NCBI GenBank assembly: GCA_026398275.1
Contig: JAPLTF010000111.1
Location: 1 to 48,937 of the forward strand
From: Verrucomicrobiota bacterium
GTDB taxonomy: Bacteria; Verrucomicrobiota; Verrucomicrobiia; Chthoniobacterales; Terrimicrobiaceae
Direction: 5' to 3'
DNA length: 48,937 nucleotides
Shown: in pieces, positions 2,731 through 16,446 of the stretch
Numbering within the stretch: position 1 is the first letter of the stretch
How the letters are laid out: every line of letters begins with the position of its first letter
The notes under the pieces: generated by a model
What the model was told of the DNA's origin: nothing
Seen by the model: only the letters and a program-made list of their open reading frames with translations
Databases searched by the model: none
Program-made: the position numbers and the translations under genes

Positions 2731-2749
2731 GGTCAACGAGTGTCCTACC
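2731..2749 (-). promoter_or_regulatory. Shared upstream box, copy B (before the ARPP-1 unit)
   Basis: On the minus strand it reads GGTAGGACACTCGTTGACC, differing from copy A (7998-8016) at one position of 19. It ends 28 nt before the ARPP-1 ATG and lies in the short gap after mcrC, so the ARPP-1 genes probably have their own control. No good -10 hexamer follows at 17 nt, so it may be an operator or activator site rather than a sigma-70 promoter. Confidence 0.6.
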
Positions 2750-2760
2750 ATAAAACATTT

Positions 2761-3837
2761 TTAATTATTTATCATCCTGGCTGCCGGTTGATTTCTTCCA
2801 AACAATTCAAGCAACTCGGACTCTATTGACGTCCATGGCTGCTGGAGATCGACCGTTGCAATCCGAATTCGATGATGACCATGAAGGGTGAAAGTGTGAT
2901 CGAAACTGTATCCGTTCGAGGGATAGAGCAACATGCCCTCCACATCCTCCCAACCCGGTTCCACAGCTTTGTTCGTGAGGTATGCATGGAGCTGGTAGAG
3001 ATTTCCGGAATCAAACCTGAGTGCGTCGTAGTGCGTAGTCATGGCCTGCTGATAGTATTTACAATCGAGAATCAGTTTTCGGTCCGACCATTCCACAGTC
3101 ACATCCGTAATCATGCCCGGCAAATAACCTTCAGTCGTCTCTCCAAAATTCGTAGCATGCCATTTTATGTGCATGGGCGAAATCTTTAATGCCGCGAGAT
3201 GGCGGATGGCGAAATTCCGGATGAAGTTCTCAAACACCTTGGGCATCACCTTTTCATCCCGAGTGAAATCCCGAAAGCGGCGTGTGCCTGCCTCTGCTCT
3301 GTCTGGCAGAAGAGAATCATGGATCAACTCGCAGAGGTGTATGATGAAACGATAAGCACGGTTGTTCCGGTGAAGTTGCACCCGGTGAAAGTGATGAGGA
3401 GTCACCTGGAGGTCGCTGACATCTCGAAATACGTCCAAAGTTTTCGCGAGGCGTTTTCGGGACTCCTTGTTAACTTGTTGGTCATTCCTAAGCAGGCGAA
3501 TTGTTGCCTTGAGGATCTGGTTATGGAGAACGTCTGGGCTGAGATCGTCATAAATGCAAATAAGCCTCCCGCGCGTGCGGCTCAGTTGTTTCTCGCTGGC
3601 TGAGATGTCGATTCGACCGCGTATACGAGCGGTTTCTTCCCCGAAGCCGATATAAGTTTGATCCAGCCCCCGGCGAACCAGACGATGTGCAGCGCTATCG
3701 AGGACTGTAGCGAAGAAATTATTGAGATCAGGACACAATTCAGCGTCAATGGGCACTAACTCCGCTTCGCTGAGACTATGATCCCATGCGTAAGCGAGCA
3801 GGTAGTAAAGATTCGCGATGGGAATCGCCATCGCCAT
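2761..3837 (-). CDS. mcrC: McrC, nuclease subunit of a McrBC-type restriction system
   Basis: A 358-aa McrC-family protein that would supply the DNA-cleaving subunit to the McrB motor. The N-terminal McrC region (IPIANLYYLLAYA, then a segment near residues 60-75 and RIRGRIDI) is followed by KVFENFIRNF near 200 and a PD-(D/E)XK nuclease core: Asp245 in MITDVTVEW, Asp258 and Lys260 in LILDCKYY, and a downstream YQLHAYL. The active site looks intact. The reading frame is open further upstream, but the ATG at 3837 overlaps the McrB stop by one base (TGATG), the usual coupling for this pair, so I place the start there. A second ATG two codons later is possible. Confidence 0.92.
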   Translation of the reverse strand: MAMAIPIANLYYLLAYAWDHSLSEAELVPIDAELCPDLNNFFATVLDSAAHRLVRRGLDQTYIGFGEETARIRGRIDISASEKQLSRTRGRLICIYDDLSPDVLHNQILKATIRLLRNDQQVNKESRKRLAKTLDVFRDVSDLQVTPHHFHRVQLHRNNRAYRFIIHLCELIHDSLLPDRAEAGTRRFRDFTRDEKVMPKVFENFIRNFAIRHLAALKISPMHIKWHATNFGETTEGYLPGMITDVTVEWSDRKLILDCKYYQQAMTTHYDALRFDSGNLYQLHAYLTNKAVEPGWEDVEGMLLYPSNGYSFDHTFTLHGHHRIRIATVDLQQPWTSIESELLELFGRNQPAARMINN

Positions 3838-6431
3838 CAGGGAATGTTTTTTACGAGGCTTGCCCGGAATGTTACTACTTTGTCGGGAACATCGATCCAG
3901 TATTCTTCCAGAAGTGGCAATATCTCGTAATTCACGATCGACTGATACCACTTCCGAAAGTCTGTCACCGCGGACACGGGTGTGAAGAAACTGTGTCCGA
4001 TCCGATAGCCTACCCCAAGATTCGCCTCATCGATGACGATTTCGTTGTTGAGCGCTGCCATTTGTGCGCGGATATAATTGATTTGCACTGGAGTGACTCC
4101 ATAACGCGACAGGTGTGCAGCAAACGCGTCTGTCCCGAAACCCGGATTGAGAGTTAAAAAAGCGAAGCGGCGGCGCAGTGCGTAATCAACAAGGGAAAGC
4201 GATCGGTCCGCAGTATTCATGGTGCCTATCAGGTGGATGTTTGCAGGCACAGTGAAGGGCTCTTCGCTGTAGGCGAGCGTCAGGGTCTGCCCACGTTTGT
4301 CCGTCTCGATTAACATCATCAACTCTCCCAGGATCTTGCTGAGGTTGCCTCGATTGATCTCATCAATGGCGAGGAAGAAATCCTGGGCGGGGTTGGCTAG
4401 GGCTCGCCGGCAGAGCCGATAAAAGCAACCGTCCTTCACAGCAAAGTGTCCATCCTTTGTCGGTCTCAGTCCTTGTACGAAATCCTCGTATGTATAGGAC
4501 TGGTGAAATTGAACCATTTCGACAGCGGAGTCGTCTTTCACCCCCATTTGCAGCCAGGCAAGTCGCCGGGCGATGAAGGTTTTGCCTACGCCCGGAGCAC
4601 CTTGAAGGATGATGTTTTTCTTCCGTCTGAGCTGCTCCAGTATGTGCTCCAACTCCTCGCGTTCCATGAATAACTCAGACAACGCCTCTTCGACTCCATA
4701 TGCATTGACCAAACCGATCTCTGAATCGTCGGCACTTTCTTCTTCGGAGTCTGCTACTAGGCCAGGAACTCCTGAATAGTTTCTGGCGAGAATCTCCAGC
4801 AGTTCCTTGTCTCCTGTTATTTCCGTGAGAGGGTTTACAGGGAGCAGCTTTCCCTCGGGAAGTTTTATGGCTTTCTGTTCCTGCCACTCCATGGGCAGCA
4901 GGTTTGGGCCAATTGGACTGTCAATCTGGTCCGCAGCATACGAGTAAGCGCCACTGACTACTCCCCACCCAAGAACCTCGGACCGACCCATTTTTGCAAA
5001 GACAATATCCCCGGGAGGGATCTCCCTCACGAAATTATTGAGCATGAATGCCATTCCAGACACATTTTTTTCGGGATTGAGGTCTTCAAGGGCACTTTGA
5101 AAATCTTCCTGCGATTTGTACTGGTTGAAGTCGCCAATTTCTTTCCAACCTATTGTGGTAACATTATTATCGATCCAATGCGCCCAGTTTTCTGCGGATA
5201 TCCCCGGTGAGATCATCCAATAGCGACGCATTTTGAAACTATCTGTTGCTTTTGAAAGAATCCTTTCCAAACCTTCCCGTAAAATTGTTGGCCGGCTTTC
5301 AAGATCGGCGATGAGATTATAGAGTTCCTTGCGATGGAATCGCTTGTAAGGGGTGCCACGCATACCGCTAAAGTGGCGACAGGAATTGCGGACAGCCTTG
5401 TCGAAATCGGGTTGCAGTTCCTCGAACTTCTCAAAAAATGTTTCTTCTGAAAATGAAGCCCAATTTCCAGTCCTATTTTGCCGTGTTAATTCCGGGTGAC
5501 CTTTTGGTAAAGCAATATGAATAATCGGGCCCGGCTTATGCTCAAAATATATCACAGGCCACCTGCCAAGATTCAATACGAGTTGAGCTATGGGCAGTTT
5601 GCTATTGCCAAAAGTAACGGCAATTAGCCGATCTGGTTCAGGCAGTTCGTCCGCGATAATCTCCAATGCTTGCTTAAAGACATTTAAGACTCGATCAGCT
5701 TGTCCGGGTATAAACATTTTATCAAAGGGGGAGCCGTAGTCGCCGTCGTCCTGTATCGTCGTGGCCCACAAATGCGCCTGCTGGGAAAACTCCACAGCAT
5801 CGCCACCAATGACGGCCCGGATTTTCGGGAGCCATTTTAAATACTCGGTTGCGGTTCTCGGCTCGTCCGAAACTCCTTTGGTCTCTGCAAAACCAAGGTT
5901 TTTTTTGTCCGTGGAGATCCATGTATTAGGGCACGCCCAAAACATGCCCATCGTAAGAATTGGCAGAGCAACGTCCGGAAGATTGAGGCATTGTTGCATG
6001 AGATCAACATCGATCGACTCTGGCTCAACGAGTGACATGATATGCTCGAAGAATCTCCAGAGGAGCGGCACATGCTCTGACGATCTCATATTCGCGTAGG
6101 GCATTAGCCACGATTTCATTGTGGCGGCCAATGGTAATCCGTCAAAATCCTGCGGCACCGCTGATTTTAGTTGCCACTCGTCCTTCAAAACCTGCCAGAG
6201 TGCTTGCCGGTTATTGTCCGTGGTTCCCCTGTTGAAATTGGCGAAGAAGGTAAATGGATCAATCTCCATAAGCTGGAATTGACTGCCGTCTGCTCCTTTG
6301 TCTGTGATTTTTGTGGTGGGCAGTCCCTTTTCTTTCATCCGGGCCAAAATCGCGACCAGTTCCTCGCTTCGATCTTTGTATTCGAGGAGTTTTTTGGCGG
6401 TTTCTTCGTGAATGGGAATCCAGGTGAACAT
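3837..6431 (-). CDS. mcrB: McrB-like AAA+ GTPase with EVE/PUA-like domain
   Basis: An 864-aa motor subunit. Residues 1-400 form a long N-terminal region I cannot assign to a named domain. Residues about 403-550 (MRRYWMISPG, then GDIVFAKMG and VLGWGVVSG) look like an EVE/PUA-type fold, which in other McrB relatives reads modified bases. The C-terminal AAA+ domain has Walker A GAPGVGKT at 611-618, Walker B FFLAIDEINRGN at 685-696, and the McrB-type MNTADRS at 738-744. Known McrBC systems use GTP to translocate on modified DNA before McrC cuts. It starts 10 nt after the DUF2779 stop and is coupled to mcrC. The target modification cannot be told from sequence. Confidence 0.92.
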   Translation of the reverse strand: MFTWIPIHEETAKKLLEYKDRSEELVAILARMKEKGLPTTKITDKGADGSQFQLMEIDPFTFFANFNRGTTDNNRQALWQVLKDEWQLKSAVPQDFDGLPLAATMKSWLMPYANMRSSEHVPLLWRFFEHIMSLVEPESIDVDLMQQCLNLPDVALPILTMGMFWACPNTWISTDKKNLGFAETKGVSDEPRTATEYLKWLPKIRAVIGGDAVEFSQQAHLWATTIQDDGDYGSPFDKMFIPGQADRVLNVFKQALEIIADELPEPDRLIAVTFGNSKLPIAQLVLNLGRWPVIYFEHKPGPIIHIALPKGHPELTRQNRTGNWASFSEETFFEKFEELQPDFDKAVRNSCRHFSGMRGTPYKRFHRKELYNLIADLESRPTILREGLERILSKATDSFKMRRYWMISPGISAENWAHWIDNNVTTIGWKEIGDFNQYKSQEDFQSALEDLNPEKNVSGMAFMLNNFVREIPPGDIVFAKMGRSEVLGWGVVSGAYSYAADQIDSPIGPNLLPMEWQEQKAIKLPEGKLLPVNPLTEITGDKELLEILARNYSGVPGLVADSEEESADDSEIGLVNAYGVEEALSELFMEREELEHILEQLRRKKNIILQGAPGVGKTFIARRLAWLQMGVKDDSAVEMVQFHQSYTYEDFVQGLRPTKDGHFAVKDGCFYRLCRRALANPAQDFFLAIDEINRGNLSKILGELMMLIETDKRGQTLTLAYSEEPFTVPANIHLIGTMNTADRSLSLVDYALRRRFAFLTLNPGFGTDAFAAHLSRYGVTPVQINYIRAQMAALNNEIVIDEANLGVGYRIGHSFFTPVSAVTDFRKWYQSIVNYEILPLLEEYWIDVPDKVVTFRASLVKNIP

Positions 6432-6441
6432 AAATAGGTTT

Positions 6442-7968
6442 TCAGTTGTGGGAGGCTGGCAGTGGGGCGATCTCCGGCTTATTCAAACCCAAGAAGCACT
6501 TCCATAGCCCGACCATTGCCAGGGTGTCGAGCTTGCAATACTCGGACAATTGCCCCCGGAGCTCCTCTTTTCGCTCAGCGGTCGTTTTCTGGTCAATGGC
6601 CTCGGCGAAAGCGTTCACGGCCATGCCCCCATCTCGCACACCTTCAAGATCGTTGTATGAGAGTTCTGGCACGGCGGCCGGGAGGACGCTTTTGATGCTC
6701 CAACTTCCACATTGGCTCGGGGCGTAGAAACACTTCTCCGCCACGGGGAGCAGGTCGATGATTCGATTGATGATTTCATGCAGTGCCGGGCTCAGGTCAA
6801 GAAAGCGGGCCGCCAGTTCGCGGAGGATCCGCTTCTCAAACTTGGCATTGTAAACGAAGACCGGACCAACCTCGCCACACGCATCGATCACCGCCTCGGC
6901 AAATGGCCTGGAAGGATCATTACCCGAGAGATCCAGAAATTGGCTGTGTTCCAGCAGAAGGGAATCCATCAACTTGTGGAGACTGAACTGGAAAGGGATC
7001 TGCTGATACGGCCGGTTGCCCGCCCAAATGGGAACGGGCCGGTTACTTGTCTCAAAATCCAGAAAATACGCAGGGAACCCGCTCCCGCTAATCGCCATTT
7101 TGGCGGTCTCCCGGTCAAAGAAGACCTCATTTCGGAGCGTGTGGTCGCGAACGAGCCTCTGTTTCTGACTCAGCAGGTGTTCCGGCACGTCCCGCAGGTC
7201 TTCCGCGCCTGCCGTTTTGAAAGCAATGCGTTGTTTTGGTGTCACACGCGGGAGCCAGTCCACGGGAAATTCGGGAGGCACCTTATCCCTGTTGCAGTAT
7301 CCGCAGAAACCGCACTCGAACGGGGTGTGGCATTGGTCCCCTGTCTCGATCTCTGGTTCCAAGTTTGAATCCGCAATTTTATGGGCACCCGAGATCCAAG
7401 CCGAGACTTCCCCGGCGCGTTCAATCGTCTCACCGGTCAAATCGCTCTCGGCCAGCAAACCAACGTAGTCGCCGCGGCCAGGATAAATCCAGGAGCTGTC
7501 GATATGAGCCACGCAAGCAGAAGAGAGATTCACGCCCATCGCCCGCGCCAGAAACGACTGCACCGCGACATCATCCCGGTGATAATCTTTCACGCCGGTG
7601 GAAGATTTGACCTCGACCATTTTCCACGACCGGCACTCCCCTTCGACAACGGGAATCATCACATCGGCGAATGCAATAGTCCCGTCACTCTTGAAACCGG
7701 CTTCGAAAACCGGACGTGCCCCCTCTGCGAGAAGGCGCGCGCTTTGTTTGAATGCGGCCGGGAAGCCATCCTTGGTCACGTCGATGCAAACGCCCGCTTC
7801 AAATGGGTCGTAAATCCGCCTCGCGATATCCCCGACTTGGTATCCGACTTGGAAACTTGCCTGGGTGGCCGGTGAATCCTGCCGGAGTTCGGGCCGATGG
7901 ACTTCGAGCCACAGCCGCTTCGGGCACTGGCGGAAGGCGATGATCTTTGATTTGGAGAGAGTCGGCAT
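6442..7968 (-). CDS. DUF2779 protein: Cas4-like plus DEDD exonuclease-like domains
   Basis: A 508-aa protein that appears to join two nuclease modules. The N-terminal half is Cas4-like: Cys15 in FRQCPKRLWLE, Asp102, the EVKSS motif at 119-123 typical of PD-(D/E)XK enzymes, and a cysteine set at 213, 219, 222 and 225 (CGFCGYC) which with Cys15 could hold an Fe-S cluster. The C-terminal half carries the DUF2779 signatures YFLDFETSN (Asp304, Glu306), VYNAKFEKRIL near 372 and EYCKLDTLAMV (Asp481), a DEDD exonuclease pattern. It is the first gene of the McrBC operon. A role in processing or degrading foreign DNA ends is plausible but inferred. Confidence 0.85.
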   Translation of the reverse strand: MPTLSKSKIIAFRQCPKRLWLEVHRPELRQDSPATQASFQVGYQVGDIARRIYDPFEAGVCIDVTKDGFPAAFKQSARLLAEGARPVFEAGFKSDGTIAFADVMIPVVEGECRSWKMVEVKSSTGVKDYHRDDVAVQSFLARAMGVNLSSACVAHIDSSWIYPGRGDYVGLLAESDLTGETIERAGEVSAWISGAHKIADSNLEPEIETGDQCHTPFECGFCGYCNRDKVPPEFPVDWLPRVTPKQRIAFKTAGAEDLRDVPEHLLSQKQRLVRDHTLRNEVFFDRETAKMAISGSGFPAYFLDFETSNRPVPIWAGNRPYQQIPFQFSLHKLMDSLLLEHSQFLDLSGNDPSRPFAEAVIDACGEVGPVFVYNAKFEKRILRELAARFLDLSPALHEIINRIIDLLPVAEKCFYAPSQCGSWSIKSVLPAAVPELSYNDLEGVRDGGMAVNAFAEAIDQKTTAERKEELRGQLSEYCKLDTLAMVGLWKCFLGLNKPEIAPLPASHN

Positions 7969-7997
7969 CTATTTGGCGCATCCTGGCTCATCAACCC

Positions 7998-8016
7998 GGT
8001 CAAAGAGTGTCCTACC
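7998..8016 (-). promoter_or_regulatory. Shared upstream box, copy A (before the DUF2779-mcrBC unit)
   Basis: On the minus strand it reads GGTAGGACACTCTTTGACC and ends 29 nt before the DUF2779 ATG. It matches copy B at 18 of 19 positions and copy C at 15 of 18. It is not a palindrome. TTGACC inside it resembles a -35 element, but no convincing -10 follows. Confidence 0.6.
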
Positions 8017-8351
8017 CCGAGGATTCTTGGAAACTTTGTTCACCGCGTCCGAACGTTGCCTGAAAACCGGGAGCGACACAACCATTGCCGCCTCGAAATC
8101 GAGTCCGCCCGCGCTCGTGTCAACTGGCGGAGTGAAAAACACGGCGAGTTGAGCAAGGAAATCTATTACCTATCAATGACTTAGGCCACGGGGACAGCGA
8201 CCATCCCCCAAATTCCATGAGAACCTGTTTTTTCAGCTTTACACTATTTTTCCTGACACCCCACCAACCCACCTGATTGTGCTTGTTCCTGATAATGAGC
8301 ATCCTACGCAGCAAAAACGCCTGATTTTCAACCCTCAAAAACCCCCTTTTC

Positions 8352-8389
8352 GATGTAAAGTAACCCCCTCAACTTTACATCTACTTTAC
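8352..8389. repeat. Inverted repeat GATGTAAAGT/ACTTTACATC plus extra half-site
   Basis: GATGTAAAGT (8352-8361) and its exact complement (8372-8381) are separated by 10 nt, and a third TACTTTAC follows at once (8382-8389). TGTAAAGTA also occurs at 2715-2723, beside box copy B. The layout fits an operator or an iteron-type protein-binding site. Confidence 0.45.
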
Positions 8390-8539
8390 GTGGCCGGGGG
8401 CGATCCGGGCGGCGTGAGGGGTGGCGGAAAAAACGTCGGCGCGGGGCTTGTGGCGAAGTTTCAGCAAGCCCGTTAAAACTGTGAGCGCGGTGCTGTGCAG
8501 GCGTTGCCACAACCTCGCAGGGGGCGGTTTTTGAGCCGA

Positions 8540-8715
8540 TTTTCGCCCCGTTTTGGCGGTGTGATTTTTGCCGGTTTTCGCCCCGTTTGGGAACTGCCGC
8601 CGGTTTGTGGCACGATTGGCGCAAGATTGTGCCGGGGTTGGGGCGGCGTTTTCCTCTGACCGCATGGGATTGAACGCCTGCCCTTTGCGAATGTCAGATA
8701 TTTGAGCGCCTGCCC
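8540..8715 (+). repeat. Spaced direct repeats (35-bp and 32-bp periods)
   Basis: TTTTCGCCCCGTTT occurs at 8540-8553 and again at 8575-8588 (period 35). TTGAACGCCTGCCC at 8670-8683 recurs with one change at 8702-8715 (period 32). They are short and only two copies each, so chance or decay of a longer array is possible. Confidence 0.35.
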
Positions 8716-9158
8716 ATTGAACCCGGTGGCGCGAATGCACCATGATCCTCCCGCTCATTGCCTTTGCGATCCTAGCCGTCCTCGGCCTGTCCTGAGTCGT
8801 GGCCCCGTTTGTCGGTTCGCCCCGGTGAGCCAAAGTGCCTCGGCAATTTGAACGGCGGCCACCCGAACCGGTATCCCGGCGCGAGGATTAACGTCGGAAT
8901 TGGCTACGGTAATCTTTTTGTAGATGGGGTGTCGGAATTACCGACTCCCTGCTTTTGCCGGAAAGGGTGTCAGCCCGAATGACTCCCTTGTGCCCCGACG
9001 CTACCAGGTTCCCAGGGGACCGTCTCGACCGCCGCCCGGGAAGCGCCGTCCCCCGAACTCTGAGCCGACTCGCTTCGATTTCCCGGCGCGGAGGGATTTT
9101 CATGCCGACATTTCCGGGATCAAGCTTCCTCGGCGGCCCAAGAATGGCACCGGATTTT

Positions 9159-9213
9159 GCGCCGTGCGCCATGTGCGCCATGTCAGGGGGTAAATCGCCG
9201 AACGGCTACACTG
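9159..9213 (+). repeat. Left arm of 55-bp imperfect inverted repeat
   Basis: It begins with three GCGCC(A/G)TGT-like units and ends with GGCTACACTG. Without gaps it matches the complement of 9322-9376 at 48 of 55 positions. The arms are 108 bp apart. Confidence 0.7.
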
Positions 9214-9237
9214 AGAGAAAGAACTGCCGTTTCATTT

Positions 9238-9263
9238 GCGCCGTGTGCGCCATGTGCGCCATG
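9238..9263 (+). repeat. Third GCGCCATGT repeat block inside the inverted repeat
   Basis: Three near-identical 9-mers (GCGCCGTGT, GCGCCATGT, GCGCCATGG) lie between the two arms, in the orientation of the left arm. In all, the 218-bp element holds three blocks of this 9-bp unit. Confidence 0.6.
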
Positions 9264-9321
9264 GAGCAGAAACTTCTGTTAAAATCTAATGGAGAGTGAG
9301 ATACGATGGCTTTTCTTGCTC

Positions 9322-9376
9322 CAGTGTAGCGATTCGGCAGTTTTACCCCTGACATGGCGCACATGGCGCATGGCGC
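9322..9376 (-). repeat. Right arm of 55-bp imperfect inverted repeat
   Basis: Reverse complement of the left arm with 7 mismatches in 55. It ends in the GCGCACATGGCGC-type iterons and contains TTTACCCCTGACATGG, which mirrors the left arm. It lies 120 bp before the small HTH gene. Confidence 0.7.
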
Positions 9377-9496
9377 ATTTTCAGGGTTTTGGCCGTGGCG
9401 GATCGGATCATCGCCGGAAATCGAGGCGCGGGGGATCGGGCCGGATTGTCGTTACGTAACAACCTTTGCTCGCGCAGTTGACACCGAAGCTGGGGC

Positions 9497-9715
9497 ATGA
9501 CCTCCACGCTCGACCTCCTTCCCCGCTACGTGAGCCTGCACCAGCTGGCCCGTCGCTCAGGCATCCACAGAAACGCGCTCACCCTGTTGATGGCACGCGG
9601 TCAGCTTAAGCCGACCGCAATGCAGAACCTGGGCGACGGGCGTGAGGGGTTCCTGTTTCCGGTCAGCACGATTGAGAAGCTGACGAGGCCCGAGGGCGAC
9701 ACTTCACTTCTGTAA
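9497..9715 (+). CDS. Small helix-turn-helix protein (excisionase/MerR-like)
   Basis: A 72-aa protein. Residues 9-35 (RYVSLHQLARRSGIHRNAL) read as a winged-helix or MerR/excisionase type HTH, followed by a basic stretch and FLFPVSTIEKL, which resembles the wing and last strand of such proteins. Proteins of this size and shape often serve mobile elements as directionality factors or small repressors. It is the first gene of a four-gene plus-strand cassette that follows the inverted repeat. The function is inferred from the HTH only. Confidence 0.7.
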   Translation: MTSTLDLLPRYVSLHQLARRSGIHRNALTLLMARGQLKPTAMQNLGDGREGFLFPVSTIEKLTRPEGDTSLL

Positions 9716-9728
9716 CCAAAAACAATTC

Positions 9729-10286
9729 ATGAATACTGAACTCCACACCATGTTGAAAACGCGCGGCATCACACTGCTGGGCAAAGACGAAATCGAGCAA
9801 CTCCAAGTGCTGGAGACTGCCTGGCAGGCGTTGAAGGCGCGGGAGGCGAACGTGATGCCCCTGCGCATCGCCGAGCACCAGAAAGCCGCCCGCGCCACGT
9901 TCCTGGCGGACATGAGCATCGAGAACGAGATACGCGTAGCGATCCTGGCTGACACGCACCAGACGCTGATGCGATACGCGGCGAGGAGGAACGTGCTTGC
10001 CGATGGCATGAAACAGCTCGCGAGCGAGGCCGGGCAATTGCTCAGGCCGCTGTGCGATCAGGTCAGCCAAGCGCTCGAGGAGGAGAAGGAACTGCGGAAG
10101 GAGCAGAAAACGACGTGCTGGGCCGATAGCGACCCCCGCGTGAAGGAATGCCAGAAATGGGTTGATGCCATGGATCGGGCGGGATCGCGTGTGCTTCTCG
10201 CCACGAGCCGGGAGTGCGAATTTTCACCGATGGAACTCGCGGAGTTTTTCCTGCCCGCCGCGCCGACACCGGAGGACGGAAAGTGA
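9729..10286 (+). CDS. Helical hypothetical protein (185 aa)
   Basis: Not recognised. Almost the whole protein is predicted helical by eye and rich in Ala, Glu, Leu and Lys, with heptad-like stretches at residues 20-60 and 90-140 (EEEKELRKEQ), so a coiled-coil or helical bundle is likely. There is no signal peptide. It lies 13 nt after the HTH gene and overlaps the next gene by 4 bp. Such small helical proteins are common in phage-like and integrative elements of unknown function. Confidence 0.75.
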   Translation: MNTELHTMLKTRGITLLGKDEIEQLQVLETAWQALKAREANVMPLRIAEHQKAARATFLADMSIENEIRVAILADTHQTLMRYAARRNVLADGMKQLASEAGQLLRPLCDQVSQALEEEKELRKEQKTTCWADSDPRVKECQKWVDAMDRAGSRVLLATSRECEFSPMELAEFFLPAAPTPEDGK

Positions 10287-10495
10287 CCAGTTCCCACAAT
10301 CCAAGGAAGGCGTTTGAGCCGACCGATGCCACGCGCCGGTGGCAGGCGCGGATTGATGCCGCAAAGCAGGAGGTCGCTGCGGCACAGGAAAAGGTGCTCA
10401 AGGCCGAATCCGCCGCCGAGCAGACCTGGCTCTATCGGGAACTGGAATCGAAACAACGGGCCGTTGAAACGGCGATGCAGAGCCCATGTGGATGA
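10283..10495 (+). CDS. Small coiled-coil hypothetical protein (70 aa), GTG start
   Basis: The frame is open from 10214, but a GGAGG at 10271-10275 and a 4-bp GTGA overlap with the preceding stop point to the GTG at 10283. The protein is a short amphipathic helix pair (AKQEVAAAQEKVLKAESAAE, then ELESKQRAVETAM). It has no known domain. Its stop overlaps the next start by 4 bp. Confidence 0.65.
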   Translation: MTSSHNPRKAFEPTDATRRWQARIDAAKQEVAAAQEKVLKAESAAEQTWLYRELESKQRAVETAMQSPCG

Positions 10496-10758
10496 AAACT
10501 TCCGCCAAAGCCCCCGCGCCCGTGGTTCGGACTCCCCCGGTGCGGCTCGCCCTGACACCGGGCCAAGTGAAACGGCTGGCCGGGGAGATCGAGGCGAGCC
10601 GGAAGTTGATCGCTGAATCCGACTGCGGCCTGCTCTGCGTTGTCGGCCAAATCCATTACCGGGACAAGAAATCCGGGAAGATCGCCGCCCTCCTCACCGT
10701 TCGCGCCATCCCCAGCGACAAGTTCGATGGTATTTGTGCGATCCTGAAGGATTGCTGA
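10492..10758 (+). CDS. Hypothetical protein (88 aa), last gene of the cassette
   Basis: Not recognised. The ATG at 10492 overlaps the preceding stop by 4 bp; an in-frame ATG two codons earlier (10486) is equally open. The N-terminal 20 residues are proline-rich and basic, the middle is helical (TPGQVKRLAGEIEASRKLI), and the end looks like beta strands (CGLLCVVGQIHYRD, then KIAALLTVRAI). A terminator follows at 10785. Confidence 0.7.
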   Translation: MKTSAKAPAPVVRTPPVRLALTPGQVKRLAGEIEASRKLIAESDCGLLCVVGQIHYRDKKSGKIAALLTVRAIPSDKFDGICAILKDC

Positions 10759-10784
10759 TAATTTCGTAGATGGAGTGCAAGTGG

Positions 10785-10815
10785 CCCCGCTGCTGGAAAC
10801 GGCAGCGGGGTTTTT
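10785..10815 (+). terminator. Rho-independent terminator of the plus-strand cassette
   Basis: A perfect 9-bp stem (CCCCGCTGC/GCAGCGGGG) with an 8-nt loop is followed at once by five T. It ends the cassette 9497-10758 and lies between it and the convergent restriction gene ending at 10829. On the minus strand there is no T run, so it works in one direction. Confidence 0.85.
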
Positions 10816-10828
10816 GCGTCGTCTGCAA

Positions 10829-13408
10829 TTAAGCCGAAAATAATTTAGCTGCCTTTGCCGCCTTGGTCATCGCCACGTCCAAGTCTGAGCGAAAACCAAC
10901 TGCCCCGCCATCACGCAACTGCTGAAAAAACACATTGAAGCTCGTTGGAGAAATCATGTTGAACTGGTAGCGGGTCGGAATCTTCTCTTTTTCGAGCCAC
11001 CGGTTGAGGCGATTGAAGTGGTTCGTCGCGTATTCGTGCTTTTTGACATTGTCGGCAGACGGATCCGCGACCTCCTCTTCTCCTTTAATTTCAACGACAA
11101 AGATTTGATCGCCCTGCTTGATAAAAAAATCGGGGCTGAACTGCCCGCGCTTGGCCGTATTTCCCTTCTTCCACGCATACTCGACCCAATAAAAGCCAAC
11201 CGGAGTGCTCTTGAGCCATGCATCAATCTTTTGTGCGGTATCAGGGTTCGTGAGTTCGCGCAGGAACGTTCGTTCCGGTTTCGCATCCACGATGGCCAGA
11301 TTCGCAGGCGTCTTGAAAAGGCTGCTTTTCGAGATTTTGACGCGTCCGGTAACGAAATCTCCGTCCTCGTCGATCACCTCGCGGAAGAATTCCTTTTGCT
11401 CGTCCGCCAGAGTGCTCTCGCAACCGGGCACATAGAAAACGGTCTTCGCGCCCCGCCTCAGCTCAGCGGCGCTACAGCTCTCGACTTGTCGGGTGGAAGT
11501 GCTCACGGCCACAAGTGCCTTGGGCGACAATTTGTAAACCACTCGTTTTGCCGCTTTGCGCCGGAGCGTGCCCAAGGCCTGCCAGAACCTCTGCCGGTTG
11601 TCGTCGGTGATCTTCCCGTCTTTGATTTTCAGCCGTTTCAGTGACGCGGCGACAATCTCTTCGCATTTCACCAATGGAAACTTCTTCGCGTAACTCGTGC
11701 GCTCCGTTGGGTCATCTTTTGATTCCTCATCGATCGCCTTCAGTTTCTGATACATCTGCTCGGCAACTTCCTCGACCGTCCATGTTTTGTGCTGGATCTT
11801 CGTTTTGAATTTGACGTGCTCGCCGGAAACCGCGCGCTGAAACCCGACCGTCACGTCCTCCGCTTGCACCTGTGCTGGAAGATCGACATAGCCGTCTTCG
11901 AAAATCTTGTATTCGCCTTTTTTCGCATACGTCGTGGTATCCTCTTCACGGGTGTAGTCGAGATTGTGGAGCTCAAAATTATACGGCGAGGCTGGGTCTA
12001 CCGTGGAGGTCAGGCGTCGCTCGATCTCCAATATTTCGTTTACCAGATGCTTGATCCGGCCTGACCAGGAATCGTGATTGAACACCGTGACGACCGGTTC
12101 CTCGCCGTTCCAGCCATCGGGTCGTCGCAGGCCGCGGCCGAGCACTTGGGCGATGAGAAGCTTGCTGTTGAACGCCCGCTCTTCGTGCGGGACGATCTGG
12201 AAGACATTCTTTACGTCCCAGCCTTCACTGAGCATCGACACAGAAACGATCCATTCCACCTTGCTCGCCGGGCTGTCCACCGTTCTGAGTTTTGCAACGT
12301 TCGGTTGGTGCTTGGTTGCAGACGTGACACAAAGAACCTTGTCGGCCGCCTGGTCCGCCGTGAGTCCTTCCCATTCCTGTAGAAAATCCCGCAATTCCTC
12401 CGCGACGCGCTCGGCGTCGGGGATGCCTTTGGTGACGACAATCGTCAACGGGCGGATGCTACGGGATTTGAGCTTCTTCTTCCAGTCTGCGTGCCGGTTG
12501 TAAACCAACTGCCACTTCTCCTCGGGCTTCTCTGCAGAGGGCGGGAGCTCGTCCACATACTCCACCGTCTTGACAAACTTTTGCTCGATAGCCTGACGCA
12601 GGGAATACCGGTGGACAACATCCGTGAAATAATCGTCGCCCACGTAGCATGTGCCCGACGCGCCGACGGTCATCCGGAACCCGTATTCGGCATCCTCCAA
12701 AAATTCTTTCCACCGTTTGGGGGTCGCTCCAGTTTCGTTGGCGACATGGTGCGCCTCGTCATTCAAGACCGCCACTCGCGCCCCCTTGCCTCTCAGGCTT
12801 TCCCGTATGGATGACTTCGTATTTTCGAGAATCGCGTGGTAATTCTCCACGCAAATCGAACCATCCACGATGCTTTCCGATGCGTTGATGATCTTCGGCG
12901 TTTTGAACTTCGCGCTATCAGGCAAGGCGTCGCGGAGTTCGCTGTTGGAAGCCAGTTCTTTGAATTTTTTCATCAGCCCATCCTCGATTGTGTTCGATGG
13001 GCAGAGCACGAGCACGCGGTCAACCGCTCCTTCCGCCAACAGAATCATGGCAAGGCCATAAAGCACATAGCTCTTTCCAGTCCCTGTCGCCTGATCCACC
13101 GAACAGGCTAGTTGATCGGGCAACTGAAGCTGTTTTTCCATCCCGGCCCATGATCCGTAACGTTCCTGCAACTCCTCGTTGGCCTCAAAGTTTTCCTTCG
13201 CAAGGGAGCGAAGGCTGGCGTATTTGCCACCAAGCAAAAACCGGAGCGTCGTTCGGATGGCTTCCTTCTGGTATTCCCTGATGCCACACAGCGCGTCCAG
13301 AAATGCCTCATACTTCCCCTCGTCCCACTTCTTCGGGTCAATATCTTCCGTGACCTTGAGGATCAGGTCCTCGTTGCGAAATGTGCGTTTGTCGCCTTTG
13401 GTGCTCAT
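10829..13408 (-). CDS. Type III-like restriction helicase/nuclease (Res subunit)
   Basis: An 859-aa SF2 ATPase with a C-terminal nuclease. Seen in order: Q-motif region near IREYQKEAI (43-51), Walker A ATGTGKS at 107-113, DEAH at 217-220 in VAVLNDEAHH, motif VI QVLGRGLRRP in the middle, and a PD-(D/E)XK site near the C-terminus (Asp760 in FSPDFF, Glu773 and Lys775 in VVEIKG). All key residues are present. In type III systems this subunit translocates and cuts DNA together with a methyltransferase; the methyltransferase gene lies 6 nt upstream. With RadC and a small protein it forms one minus-strand operon. Confidence 0.88.
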   Translation of the reverse strand: MSTKGDKRTFRNEDLILKVTEDIDPKKWDEGKYEAFLDALCGIREYQKEAIRTTLRFLLGGKYASLRSLAKENFEANEELQERYGSWAGMEKQLQLPDQLACSVDQATGTGKSYVLYGLAMILLAEGAVDRVLVLCPSNTIEDGLMKKFKELASNSELRDALPDSAKFKTPKIINASESIVDGSICVENYHAILENTKSSIRESLRGKGARVAVLNDEAHHVANETGATPKRWKEFLEDAEYGFRMTVGASGTCYVGDDYFTDVVHRYSLRQAIEQKFVKTVEYVDELPPSAEKPEEKWQLVYNRHADWKKKLKSRSIRPLTIVVTKGIPDAERVAEELRDFLQEWEGLTADQAADKVLCVTSATKHQPNVAKLRTVDSPASKVEWIVSVSMLSEGWDVKNVFQIVPHEERAFNSKLLIAQVLGRGLRRPDGWNGEEPVVTVFNHDSWSGRIKHLVNEILEIERRLTSTVDPASPYNFELHNLDYTREEDTTTYAKKGEYKIFEDGYVDLPAQVQAEDVTVGFQRAVSGEHVKFKTKIQHKTWTVEEVAEQMYQKLKAIDEESKDDPTERTSYAKKFPLVKCEEIVAASLKRLKIKDGKITDDNRQRFWQALGTLRRKAAKRVVYKLSPKALVAVSTSTRQVESCSAAELRRGAKTVFYVPGCESTLADEQKEFFREVIDEDGDFVTGRVKISKSSLFKTPANLAIVDAKPERTFLRELTNPDTAQKIDAWLKSTPVGFYWVEYAWKKGNTAKRGQFSPDFFIKQGDQIFVVEIKGEEEVADPSADNVKKHEYATNHFNRLNRWLEKEKIPTRYQFNMISPTSFNVFFQQLRDGGAVGFRSDLDVAMTKAAKAAKLFSA

Positions 13409-13414
13409 GGTGGC

Positions 13415-15427
13415 TTACTTTCTCGATTTCTTCTGTGGCTTCTTGGCTGGCTTGGCCGCTTTTTTCGCGGGCTTCGCCCCAGCCTTCGCTTTCCCGAATC
13501 CGAAAGTGGCCGCCGGAATGACTTCGCGCGCCTCGTTGCCATAGATGTCCACGAATACGACCATGACTTTCTCCCCGACCGATTCGAGCGGAAAGCGGAC
13601 TTCCCAGCCCGCACCTTGGATGGCCTCCGCATAAAAGACCGCGTCAAGGTCGAACACGTCGGATTCCGAATCGAAATCGAAATCGAGCATCACCATGGAT
13701 AACGTCTCCCGATTGGCTTTTTTGGCGGTATCGCGGACTGCGGCCTCGCTCCAGAATGTCTTGATGCGGATGACGCCTTCATCCGGCTTCCCGCTCTTCC
13801 CTTTGGCTACTGTAGCGACATAACCCAGTTCGGGTGACCGGATAAAATCGAATCCCACCGCATCCACCGTATCATTGACCGCCATTTCATCGGCGGGCTG
13901 CTTGAGCGCGGCGAATTCGCGCTGGTGAAGCTCGTGGATGATCGAATACGGGATCCGCAGGGCGAAGTAGCGAACCCCATCGAGCGTCAGATAGTCTTGC
14001 TGGAAATCGAAAACCAGCGCGGGCGCGATGATAAACATCCGGCTGCCGACCTTTGAACCAAGTGCCTCATGCATGCTTTGAATGGAATCTTCGTCGATCC
14101 GAACGCCGGGCTGTTTCTGGTGGTTGAATACCAGAACGCTTGAACCTTTCAGGTAGCCGTCGAGTTGGATTCCACCAATTTTGTGCGGTTCGTCCCGACA
14201 CTGGAATAATTGGAGCGCAAAGAACCGCCACGCGTCCCAAGATAACTCCTTTAGTTTGCTGAAATCGTAGAGTCCCGCATTGTAGAGATCAAACGGGCGT
14301 GGTTTCAATGGAACCAAAGTTTCCCCGACCTCAGTCTGCAAGTTTAACATGCGTTTCTGAATCGTATAAATGGCGAGTTTTCCGCAATCGATGCCAATCC
14401 ACCTTCGCTTGTTAGCCTCCGCAACAGCGCAAGTCGTGCCAGATCCTCCAAATGCATCCATCACCAAATCTCCTTCGCCCGTGGAAGCGCGGACAATGCG
14501 CTCAACTAAGGCCGCTGGTTTTTGCGTCGGGTATCCTGTCCGTTCGGGGTGATTTCCACGTAGGAACTGGAGATCCGACCATACGTCGCTTAGCGGCCTG
14601 CCTTGTGAAATAATTTCATCAACGTAGCGCTTGTATGGCTCTTGACCGGCGGCCTGTCCTCGAGTCTCCCATACCCACTCCTTGCCTGATGCATCACGGT
14701 GGACCTTCCTTCTCAGCCCTTTTAGCCTCTCAACTTTGTCATAGGGCACGGCGACGTTTGCCATGTTGATTGAAGTCGTTGATGATCGCGCATAAAAGAG
14801 AATCGTTTCGTGCTTCGCGTTGAACTTCGTGTTTATGTGCATCTCACGGCCTGGGTAGTGCCAAATCAGTTCGTTGCGAAAATTGCTTTCTCCAAATATC
14901 TCGTCCATTGCCACCTTGATGTAGTGCGCTTTTTTCCAGTCCAGATGGACGTAGATTGCACCATCATGCGTCAAAAGCTCACGCATCAAAACAAGGCGTT
15001 TTCTCAAAAATTCTACGAATCGAGCTCCCCCTATCTTATCCTGATAGGCTTTTTGCTCATCAGCACCTTGAAAGTCTTGCATCGTTGCAAATGGTGGGTC
15101 GATGTAAATGAGTCTCACGCCGGGTGTGCCATCCGCATTGCACAGCTTTCCCGCCCGTTTCATCTCCAACAAACTTTTCATCACCTGAAGGTTGTCTCCG
15201 AAGATGAGCTTGTTGTGCCACCCGTCGCCATTCTTGCCGAATGTGCGAACCTTCTGGAGCGGGACGGCCAGCGTGTTGGCAATGATGTCCTCCTCGCGCT
15301 CCTTGCCGTGATAAACCAATTCGTATTCGCGTTTTTCCGGCGGGAAGAGGATGCGGGCCCACTCGGGCGAGATCTCCTCCTTTGATTTCAGCAGTCGGAT
15401 AATTTCCAAGCGTTGTTCGTCGTCCAT
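13415..15427 (-). CDS. Site-specific DNA methyltransferase, beta class (type III Mod-like)
   Basis: A 670-aa N6-adenine or N4-cytosine methyltransferase. The catalytic DPPF is at residues 110-113 and the SAM-binding motif DAFGGSGTT near 324-332, so the order is catalytic then SAM (beta class); TGYPTQKPAAL precedes motif I as in this family. The C-terminal 300 residues probably hold the target-recognition part, and the protein ends in a 25-residue Lys/Ala/Pro tail (KPAKKAAKPAKK). I chose ATG 15427, 5 nt after the RadC stop, because relatives start with MDDEQRLEII-like sequence; the upstream ATG at 15487 would overlap radC by 55 bp. Confidence 0.87.
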   Translation of the reverse strand: MDDEQRLEIIRLLKSKEEISPEWARILFPPEKREYELVYHGKEREEDIIANTLAVPLQKVRTFGKNGDGWHNKLIFGDNLQVMKSLLEMKRAGKLCNADGTPGVRLIYIDPPFATMQDFQGADEQKAYQDKIGGARFVEFLRKRLVLMRELLTHDGAIYVHLDWKKAHYIKVAMDEIFGESNFRNELIWHYPGREMHINTKFNAKHETILFYARSSTTSINMANVAVPYDKVERLKGLRRKVHRDASGKEWVWETRGQAAGQEPYKRYVDEIISQGRPLSDVWSDLQFLRGNHPERTGYPTQKPAALVERIVRASTGEGDLVMDAFGGSGTTCAVAEANKRRWIGIDCGKLAIYTIQKRMLNLQTEVGETLVPLKPRPFDLYNAGLYDFSKLKELSWDAWRFFALQLFQCRDEPHKIGGIQLDGYLKGSSVLVFNHQKQPGVRIDEDSIQSMHEALGSKVGSRMFIIAPALVFDFQQDYLTLDGVRYFALRIPYSIIHELHQREFAALKQPADEMAVNDTVDAVGFDFIRSPELGYVATVAKGKSGKPDEGVIRIKTFWSEAAVRDTAKKANRETLSMVMLDFDFDSESDVFDLDAVFYAEAIQGAGWEVRFPLESVGEKVMVVFVDIYGNEAREVIPAATFGFGKAKAGAKPAKKAAKPAKKPQKKSRK

Positions 15428-15432
15428 ATCAG

Positions 15433-16200
15433 TCAGTTTTTCAGAGAAAGTTTCGTGTGCTGCCGCAGTTCGCCGGGAGCGAGGCAAAGCAATTCCAATT
15501 CATCCAGCACTCCGCTGTCGGCAAAGCTGAAAGTCGTCTCCTCGCCCACGATGACATGGTCGAGCACCTTGATCCCGAGGGGACGGCAGGCGGCAATCAA
15601 ATCCTGTGTCAGCATCCGATCCGACTCGCTCGGTTCTGCTGCCCCGGACGGGTGGTTATGCGCGGCGATCAATGCCGAGGCGTTCACCTGCAAAGCCCGT
15701 GCGACAATATTCCGCAAAGAGGGCCGGACGGCATCCACGGACCCCTGGGCGATCAGGGAATCCTCCAGCATGGCATTACGCCGGTTCAGATACAGCACGC
15801 GGAACTGTTCCTCCGCGAGCCCACGCATCCGCTCCCGCAAATACTCCGCCGCCGCCGCCGTCCTTTTGAAAATCAACTGGCCGCGACTCGCAGGCACCGA
15901 AACGCGCCGGGCAATTTCCACTGCCGCGATCAACTGAGCCGCCTTCGCGCCCTTCAGCCCCTTTACCTCAAGCAAGGCGATGACCGGAGCCTCCACCATC
16001 GCCCGAAGCGAGCCGAACCGCTTCAAGACCTGCCGAGCCATTTCGACCGCGTTCGTGCCCTTGAATCCCACCCGGATCAATATCGCGACCAGCTCCGCAT
16101 CCGTCATCGCCTGGGCACCCTTCGACAAAAGCCGTTCCCGCGGCCGCTCCTCTTGCGGCCACGATGCAATCCCGGTCGTCTTTATTTCCGTTGCGGCCAT
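15433..16200 (-). CDS. radC: RadC family JAB-domain protein
   Basis: A 255-aa RadC (UPF0758) protein with both usual parts. The N-terminal helix-hairpin region has ERPRERLLSKGAQAMTDAEL (20-37) and the LLEVKGLKGAKAAQL hairpin near 76-90. The JAB/MPN domain has its full zinc site: HNHPSG at 181-186 and Asp194 in SESD. RadC does not have the DNA-repair role once proposed; many copies are carried by mobile or defence regions and the function is open. The frame is open further upstream, but ATG 16200 gives the canonical length and follows the 62-aa gene by 14 nt. Confidence 0.9.
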   Translation of the reverse strand: MAATEIKTTGIASWPQEERPRERLLSKGAQAMTDAELVAILIRVGFKGTNAVEMARQVLKRFGSLRAMVEAPVIALLEVKGLKGAKAAQLIAAVEIARRVSVPASRGQLIFKRTAAAAEYLRERMRGLAEEQFRVLYLNRRNAMLEDSLIAQGSVDAVRPSLRNIVARALQVNASALIAAHNHPSGAAEPSESDRMLTQDLIAACRPLGIKVLDHVIVGEETTFSFADSGVLDELELLCLAPGELRQHTKLSLKN

Positions 16201-16214
16201 TACTTTGAAGTTGG

Positions 16215-16403
16215 CTACTCCTCTCCCAAGCGAGGCAGCGGCACTTCGTCGGGATGCGGATATGCAGCTACTGGCGACACGAAGCTGGCGTTCCACTTCC
16301 ACGATACCGGGTTCATCTCTGACGGGGCGATCCACTGCATGGCGTGACGGTATAGCCGTTCCGGCGCGACCGGGCGAGAGGATTTCGGAATTTCCGCATT
16401 CAT
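16215..16403 (-). CDS. Small hypothetical protein (62 aa) leading the RadC operon
   Basis: The sequence begins MNAEIPKSSRPVAPE and contains a Trp-rich middle (MQWIAPSEMNPVSWKWN) and a proline-rich end. No domain is recognised. Support: its stop is 14 nt before radC, the frame is protein-like, and box copy C lies 25 nt upstream of this ATG, close to the 28-29 nt seen at the other two operons. Another ATG two codons earlier is possible. It could be a short regulatory or adaptor subunit. Confidence 0.6.
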   Translation of the reverse strand: MNAEIPKSSRPVAPERLYRHAMQWIAPSEMNPVSWKWNASFVSPVAAYPHPDEVPLPRLGEE

Positions 16404-16428
16404 GCCCATGGGTGTATCACAGCGACGA

Positions 16429-16446
16429 GACAAAGACTGTCCCACC
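16429..16446 (-). promoter_or_regulatory. Shared upstream box, copy C (before the RadC-methyltransferase-Res unit)
   Basis: On the minus strand it reads GGTGGGACAGTCTTTGTC, matching copy A at 15 of 18 positions, and lies 25 nt before the first ATG of the operon. Together with copies A and B it points to shared control of the three operons. Confidence 0.5.

Follow-up and report, generated by a model that had tools for sequence, protein, structure and literature searches.

The window analysed here is the 48,937-nt contig JAPLTF010000111.1 (C23) of a Verrucomicrobiota genome of 4.66 Mb in all (GCA_026398275.1, Terrimicrobiaceae; designated as G000). It carries three defence-type operons on the minus strand, each of which is preceded by a copy of a box of 19 bp. 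The first operon encodes a DUF2779 protein (6442–7968; PF11074, E = 3.4e-37), a McrB-like AAA_5 GTPase/ATPase (3837–6431; PF07728, E = 1.9e-24; REase_II in PADLOC) and McrC (2761–3837; PF10117, E = 1.7e-31). The second begins with an ARPP-1 domain protein (1794–2702; PF20208, E = 3.9e-56) and includes a protein of the endonuclease/exonuclease/phosphatase (EEP) family (539–1246; PF03372, E = 1.2e-6). The third consists of a 62-codon leader open reading frame (ORF; 16215–16403), a RadC-like protein with an uncertain start (15433–16335; PF04002, E = 1.9e-38), a DNA methylase of the N6/N4 type (Mod; 13415–15427; PF01555, E = 1.5e-46; MTase_II/III in PADLOC) and a ResIII-type restriction/helicase subunit (10829–13408; PF04851, E = 4.1e-15). 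The Pfam and PADLOC matches back the gene identities that had been proposed in a sequence-only reading of the window. The "small protein" that this reading had placed at the head of the RadC operon is present as the 62-codon ORF and is refined here to a leader ORF copied with its promoter between operons; it is common to the promoter segment before HsdM in another genome (G002) and to C27.

The box was found as GGTAGGACACTCTTTGACC (7998–8016, minus strand; core GGACA-N5-TGACC) before the DUF2779-mcrBC operon and, with one mismatch, as GGTAGGACACTCGTTGACC (2731–2749, minus strand) before the ARPP-1–EEP operon. Both copies had been given by the sequence-only reading, and a scan of the window with up to three mismatches to the 19-bp box returned none beyond them (chance expectation, 0). 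The third copy in that reading is real as a diverged box of the GTCT class (GGTGGGACAGTCTTTGTCT, minus strand) with four differences from the 19-bp box, and it surfaces solely with the degenerate consensus used for the genome-wide search; its extent is 16428–16446 (19 bp) and not 16429–16446. Plausible start codons follow the boxes after 29 nt (DUF2779), 28 nt (ARPP-1) and 24 nt (RadC operon), the last of which had been given as 25 nt since it was measured from an 18-bp box. The orientation shared by the three copies is as described but uninformative, because all three operons lie on the minus strand. Rfam and tRNA searches of the window gave no match.

Boxed operons in the genome and its relatives

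Searching G000 with the degenerate consensus GGTRGGACASYCKTTGWCY at up to one mismatch gave 13 sites, while the reversed pattern, used as the control, gave none. Approximately 15 convincing boxes, scattered over ten contigs, are present once near variants are counted, and an ATG or GTG is located 24–30 nt downstream in 13 of these 15. A repeat element of the REP or IS type was ruled out, as the copies keep a fixed distance to the start codon that follows. Weaker matches were left unused because the control pattern is about as frequent as the consensus genome-wide at three mismatches. Likewise, a loose 16-bp pattern at three mismatches was not significant against shuffled sequence (8 versus 5.2 expected), and therefore only close copies were counted. 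The LexA/SOS box of Verrucomicrobia, TGTTC-N4-GAACA, was also ruled out, since the core of the box, GGACA-N5-TGWCY, is a different palindrome.

Genes outside the window were called with a simple script, and the names HsdM, Cas9, coaE, obgE, Cas2 and YbjN-like were assigned by reading of the sequence only. The boxed genes of G000 include a type V-B CRISPR-Cas operon (Cas12b, E = 4.9e-139; Cas4-Cas1, then a gene reading as Cas2), a type I-C CRISPR-Cas operon (Cas3, Csd1), an HmaA helicase (E = 5.3e-184) with a SIR2 protein, DUF932 with a YhcG/PDC-S02 nuclease, an N6-methylase and, separately, a methyltransferase-HNH-S24 fusion, an AAA ATPase behind an ARPP-1-like leader remnant, a second ARPP-1-type gene and a vWA-DnaB pair. 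In relatives, the box is located upstream of a Cas3 operon, a type III Res/Mod pair, an mREase IV locus, PDC-S41, an AddAB-type helicase-nuclease pair and a gene reading as HsdM. Random occurrence of the motif, or its occurrence across ordinary genes, had been named as findings that would speak against a common element uniting the three units of the window in one regulon. The comparison of 13 sites with none shows that the motif is non-random. As judged from Pfam and PADLOC, most of the targets are defence genes and some are not. The common element is thus supported by an equal box and spacing before further, mostly defence-type operons in G000 and its relatives.

Several features of these loci are described here in their own right. 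The boxed fusion is a 751-residue ORF (6252–8507 of L072, from C68) with methyltransferase, weak HNH and S24-peptidase matches, an unusual combination that is possibly self-cleaving. The vWA protein and the DnaB replicative helicase stand together behind a box (886–3023 of L066, from C54). In the window, a 56-nt inverted repeat with GCGCCATGTGCGCCATG units (88% complementary, 108 nt apart; 9158–9377) lies between two defence operons and is adjoined by small plus-strand ORFs (9497–10758). Two near-identical GGTGTGACAGCTTTTGACT segments occur 4 kb apart (positions 1631 and 5675 of L094, from G013:C3) among small ORFs that read as toxin-antitoxin-like; this is perhaps a repeat unrelated to the regulon.

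Architecture and copying of the boxed promoters

Alignment of the copies gave the core GGACA-N5-TGWCY, one step off the palindrome GGACA-N5-TGTCC. A -10-like hexamer follows, with its first base after 13 nt past TTGWC, or after 12 nt in the GTCT class. Specifically, the hexamers in the window are CAGGAT (7980–7985) and TACAGT (2713–2718), both 13 nt past the TTGAC of their boxes, and TACACC (16411–16416), 12 nt past the TTGTC of the RadC-operon box; all are on the minus strand.

Some of these promoters are closely related. The promoters of Cas12b (C37) and Cas3 (C63) are 83% identical over positions -9 to +140, and because the identity extends to +140 the Cas12b operon opens with a 40-codon remnant resembling the N-terminus of the Cas3 of C63 (4882–5050 of L065), apparently a captured promoter segment. 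The RadC-operon promoter is 91% identical to that of C75a over 210 nt, and together with the leader ORF it is 86% identical over 206 nt to the segment before HsdM in G002. Promoter segments were evidently copied between defence operons, judging from these identities, so the copies in the genome cannot all be counted as independent. The spacing was therefore examined on promoters that had been grouped by the similarity of their flanks, the box itself being left out.

In this clustered test, NANNNT was found at offset 13 in 15 of 28 clusters (binomial P = 1.9e-11, or 8.8e-10 when corrected for 46 offsets), and the runner-up was offset 7. The peak holds separately for the bacterial (9/20) and viral (6/8) clusters, and the stricter TANNNT at offset 13 is clear in the viral ones (5/8). 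The P values of the bacterial set are descriptive, because the motif and the offset were first spotted on the same promoters. The viral spacing is the nearest to an independent check: the first six viral contigs were retrieved by the exact box and not by the -10-like element. The sequence-only reading had taken loss of the spacing as evidence against a shared function; in fact, the distance from the box to the -10-like element is conserved among otherwise unrelated promoters.

Taking the hexamer as the -10 element puts the centre of the box near -32 and the variable N5 in the place of the -35 hexamer, so the boxed promoters would lack a normal -35. The arrangement corresponds to the layout of DriD- and PafBC-type promoters, i.e. 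a site over the -35 region, a fixed distance to the -10 and no good -35, and it was found in both the bacterial and the viral sets. Translation would begin within approximately 15 nt of the -10 element, which implies very short leaders.

The exact box occurs in six viral contigs of IMG/VR. A search for the box together with the -10-like element gave 15 viral matches, of which about seven seem to be intergenic promoters in a visual sorting by ORF cover and the presence of a start codon downstream. Raw matches at the control offset 16 equal those at offset 13 (15 and 15), but every one of the former falls within a long ORF, and the matches at control spacings of 10 or 16 are inside ORFs in nearly all cases. 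The contigs with the box and the -10 at equal spacing are L259, L260, L262, L264, L265, L270 and L275, and several viral contigs carry more than one related site. The boxes are followed by a gene for a DnaB-like helicase in one contig and by exonuclease genes in two; a DnaC-like loader was also seen, and replication or recombination genes follow the box in two cases. In other contigs, small proteins without a PHROGs match follow the box. These observations suggest that viruses exploit the same switch.

A single WYL protein as the candidate regulator

G000 encodes exactly one WYL protein (PF13280, E = 3.2e-17). Its gene (C99, 13902–14816) lies outside the window, in a core-type neighbourhood with genes reading as coaE and obgE, and is the orthologue of WYL-domain genes that adjoin boxed DUF2779 genes in G030 and G083. 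Of 147 genomes of the order, 85 have an orthologue, a number far above that of the genomes with boxes, and a scan of named genomes found them in many Verrucomicrobiota, mostly metagenome-assembled genomes (MAGs) of Spartobacteria/Chthoniobacterales. As a side observation, several genomes have vWA and ARPP-1-like genes next to the WYL regulator (L107, L113, L100, L101 and L103), with boxes between some of them, and the vWA gene that adjoins it in L107 and L113 is similar in sequence to the boxed vWA gene of C54. The ARPP-1-like genes may be ancestral targets.

The WYL genes themselves are associated with the palindrome. GGACA-N5-TGTCC with at least nine of ten matches was found within 330 nt upstream in 67 of 105 distinct orthologue loci (2.3 expected), and the perfect palindrome in 31 of the 105 (0.47 expected), the expected counts being taken from the rest of the same loci. 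Among the 67 sited loci, 41 have an open in-frame start codon exactly 1 nt past the palindrome and 21 have TTGA 20–21 nt upstream of it. The position of the palindrome 1 nt before the start codon suggests self-repression.

The domain composition is that of WYL-domain transcription factors, with a helix-turn-helix (HTH), a WYL and a WCX domain in one chain. P0001 matches PF13280 (WYL, E = 5.5e-17) and PF25583 (WCX, E = 1.5e-16), with HTH_11 just under the cut-off; HTH_11 is above the cut-off on P0002. The predicted fold of the orthologue VE2 (mean pLDDT 75, pTM 0.45) was compared with known structures and gave DriD as the best match (Z = 18.1 over 188 residues, 3.5 Å), followed by PafBC (14.1), BrxR (13.8) and CapW (12.8), and unrelated proteins reached at most about 9. 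Whole-chain superpositions gave large RMSD values, as expected because the domains are placed differently. By sequence, phmmer gave PafBC as the best PDB match (E = 5.6e-17) and DriD at E = 1.7e-7. The residues R187, R191, T192, F193 and R197 of the WYL domain are invariant in 20 orthologues, which is compatible with, and not proof of, a single-stranded DNA (ssDNA) ligand.

Previous studies on these proteins provide a framework for comparison. DriD of Caulobacter crescentus is a WYL activator that is itself activated by ssDNA, and its sites, placed at a set distance from the -10, extend over a poor -35 (PMC12340889). The protein of G000 is homologous to it in the winged HTH (wHTH)-WYL-WCX arrangement, and the boxed promoters resemble its targets in layout; the binding sequences may differ. 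In contrast to DriD, most targets here are defence operons, and a palindrome lies at the start codon of the WYL gene itself. PafBC is also activated by ssDNA and adapts sigma-A to its promoters (PMC11804915), and the mycobacterial motif tTGTCRgtg-8nt-TannnT (PMC5656591) places 12 nt between TTGTC and TannnT, compared with 12–13 nt here. The motif of PafBC, a heterodimer or fusion, is non-palindromic, whereas G000 has a single WYL protein and a near-palindrome (PMC5656591, PMC6789036, PMC11804915). BrxR and CapW, likewise WYL proteins, regulate phage-defence operons and bind to inverted repeats, which have a 5-bp spacer for BrxR (PMC9122601, PMC9122589, PMC9122588). They are encoded with the operon that they repress, while the G000 WYL gene stands in its core-type neighbourhood, with the sites spread across ten contigs. 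In agreement with this difference, no defence operon was recognised in the 8-kb stretch around the C99 gene (L126); adjacency of the BrxR/CapW kind is present in G030 and G083, where the WYL gene is beside the boxed DUF2779. RptR shares with the present case a transcriptional regulator, a short conserved site and a link to restriction-modification (R-M), but it is a small regulator that uses TAGCTA sites and represses an adjacent island, and it is not described as a WYL protein in PMC12255303. A literature search, limited to the papers available, found no WYL regulon described from Verrucomicrobiota.

A probable WYL-controlled defence regulon and its alternatives

We consider it likely, with a probability of roughly 0.68, that the box is the site of one trans-acting factor, the WYL protein encoded in C99, which would activate the scattered defence operons and repress its own gene. 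In this mechanism, the wHTH-WYL-WCX protein would bind GGACA-N5-TGWCY near -32, in place of a -35 element. As the boxed promoters appear to have no normal -35, the regulator would most likely act like DriD and PafBC and recruit sigma-70 RNA polymerase. The layout shared with DriD and PafBC promoters points to activation at the defence operons and to ssDNA as the likeliest signal; the WYL domain probably binds ssDNA arising from phage infection or DNA damage. The protein would repress its own gene through the palindrome over the start region. As a result, damage or infection would induce a regulon of defence operons that are unlinked and in part horizontally acquired, and some of these may have joined it through copied promoter segments.

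Several points weigh against this reading. The binding of the boxes by the WYL protein is a prediction, and activation rather than repression is argued from promoter geometry. Taken alone, the bacterial clusters have TANNNT at offset 13 in 3 of 20, which is not significant after correction. Part of the similarity between boxes stems from duplication of promoter segments. About 38 of the 105 WYL orthologue loci, several in the same family, have no clear upstream site, and G004, a MAG of 90% completeness, has four boxes and no WYL gene was found in it, with an integrase-like ORF in the syntenic place. G014 also seems to be without a WYL gene, but its contig C24 opens with the apparent last codons of one, so this absence is probably due to an assembly break and G004 stays an exception. 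The regulon is also partial, as part of the defence repertoire is outside it: no box was found at the CRISPR locus of C36 (L328; a weaker Cas1 match and a Cas9-like ORF of 1146 residues) or at several type I R-M (methylase) loci of G000.

The main rival to activation by the WYL protein is that the same protein binds the boxes and represses the defence operons too, in the mode of BrxR and CapW, to be released by a ligand during infection. BrxR and CapW repress defence operons from inverted repeats, the former with the 5-bp spacer that is also seen here; the -35 region covered by the box is a place where a repressor would work as well, and the site of the WYL gene itself has repressor geometry. 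At the defence operons, however, the N5 sits at the position of the -35 hexamer and leaves no evident constitutive promoter to repress, the boxes do not overlap the -10 as CapW sites do, and the fixed spacing from the box to the -10 fits an activator that touches RNA polymerase. We therefore regard general repression as improbable, with a chance of about a fifth.

Two other explanations dispense with the WYL protein or with any common regulator, and both are judged very unlikely. Sigma-54 promoters have GG at -24 and GC at -12, 10 nt apart (consensus TGGCACGNNNNTTGCW), and TRGGACANNNNTTGWC shares the 7 + 4 spacing of this consensus. Together with the fixed spacing to the start codon, this would suit an alternative sigma factor, either sigma-54-like (-24/-12) or of the ECF type, to which the WYL protein is unrelated. 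The invariant GC at -12 is absent, the second element being GT or GA in all 15 copies of G000, which rules out a sigma-54 promoter as such; a -10-like element at a fixed distance and the presence of the core palindrome upstream of WYL genes across Verrucomicrobiota argue against the wider explanation. Equally improbable is that the box is just a part of promoter segments spread by duplication or recombination among mobile defence islands. The long identities between the Cas12b and Cas3 promoters, and of the RadC-operon promoter (w16428) with C75a and with the HsdM segment of G002, are what such spread would leave behind. Nevertheless, 28 separate promoters keep the box and the spacing after clustering by flanks, and the palindrome is kept at the WYL genes of distant taxa.

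Control by the WYL protein might extend well beyond G000. A tentative proposal, to which we give somewhat less than an even chance, is a lineage-wide, self-repressing and ssDNA-sensing WYL switch over an immune regulon (CRISPR V-B and I-C, R-M, Mcr and Hma/SIR2), spread by a promoter cassette copied onto new systems, with phages carrying the promoter, in some cases before replication or recombination genes.

Defence systems have mostly been studied singly, and the wider question is how one cell brings many acquired systems into coordination. In this genome, one DNA-sensing regulator probably controls many immune systems together. With one predicted regulator and a site of 15 bp that can be read from the sequence, such coordination becomes testable, because the operons can be listed and a protein and a signal can be put forward as candidates. 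While BrxR and CapW act on a neighbouring operon, in G000 operons at scattered places would answer to one core gene, and a new system could be connected to the network by copying of the promoter. A further use of the box could be in searches for defence operons of Verrucomicrobiota that have no annotation, such as the ARPP-1, DUF932/YbjN-like and vWA-DnaB units. If the proposal of a lineage-wide switch is true, host immunity and the early expression of phages would read one damage signal.
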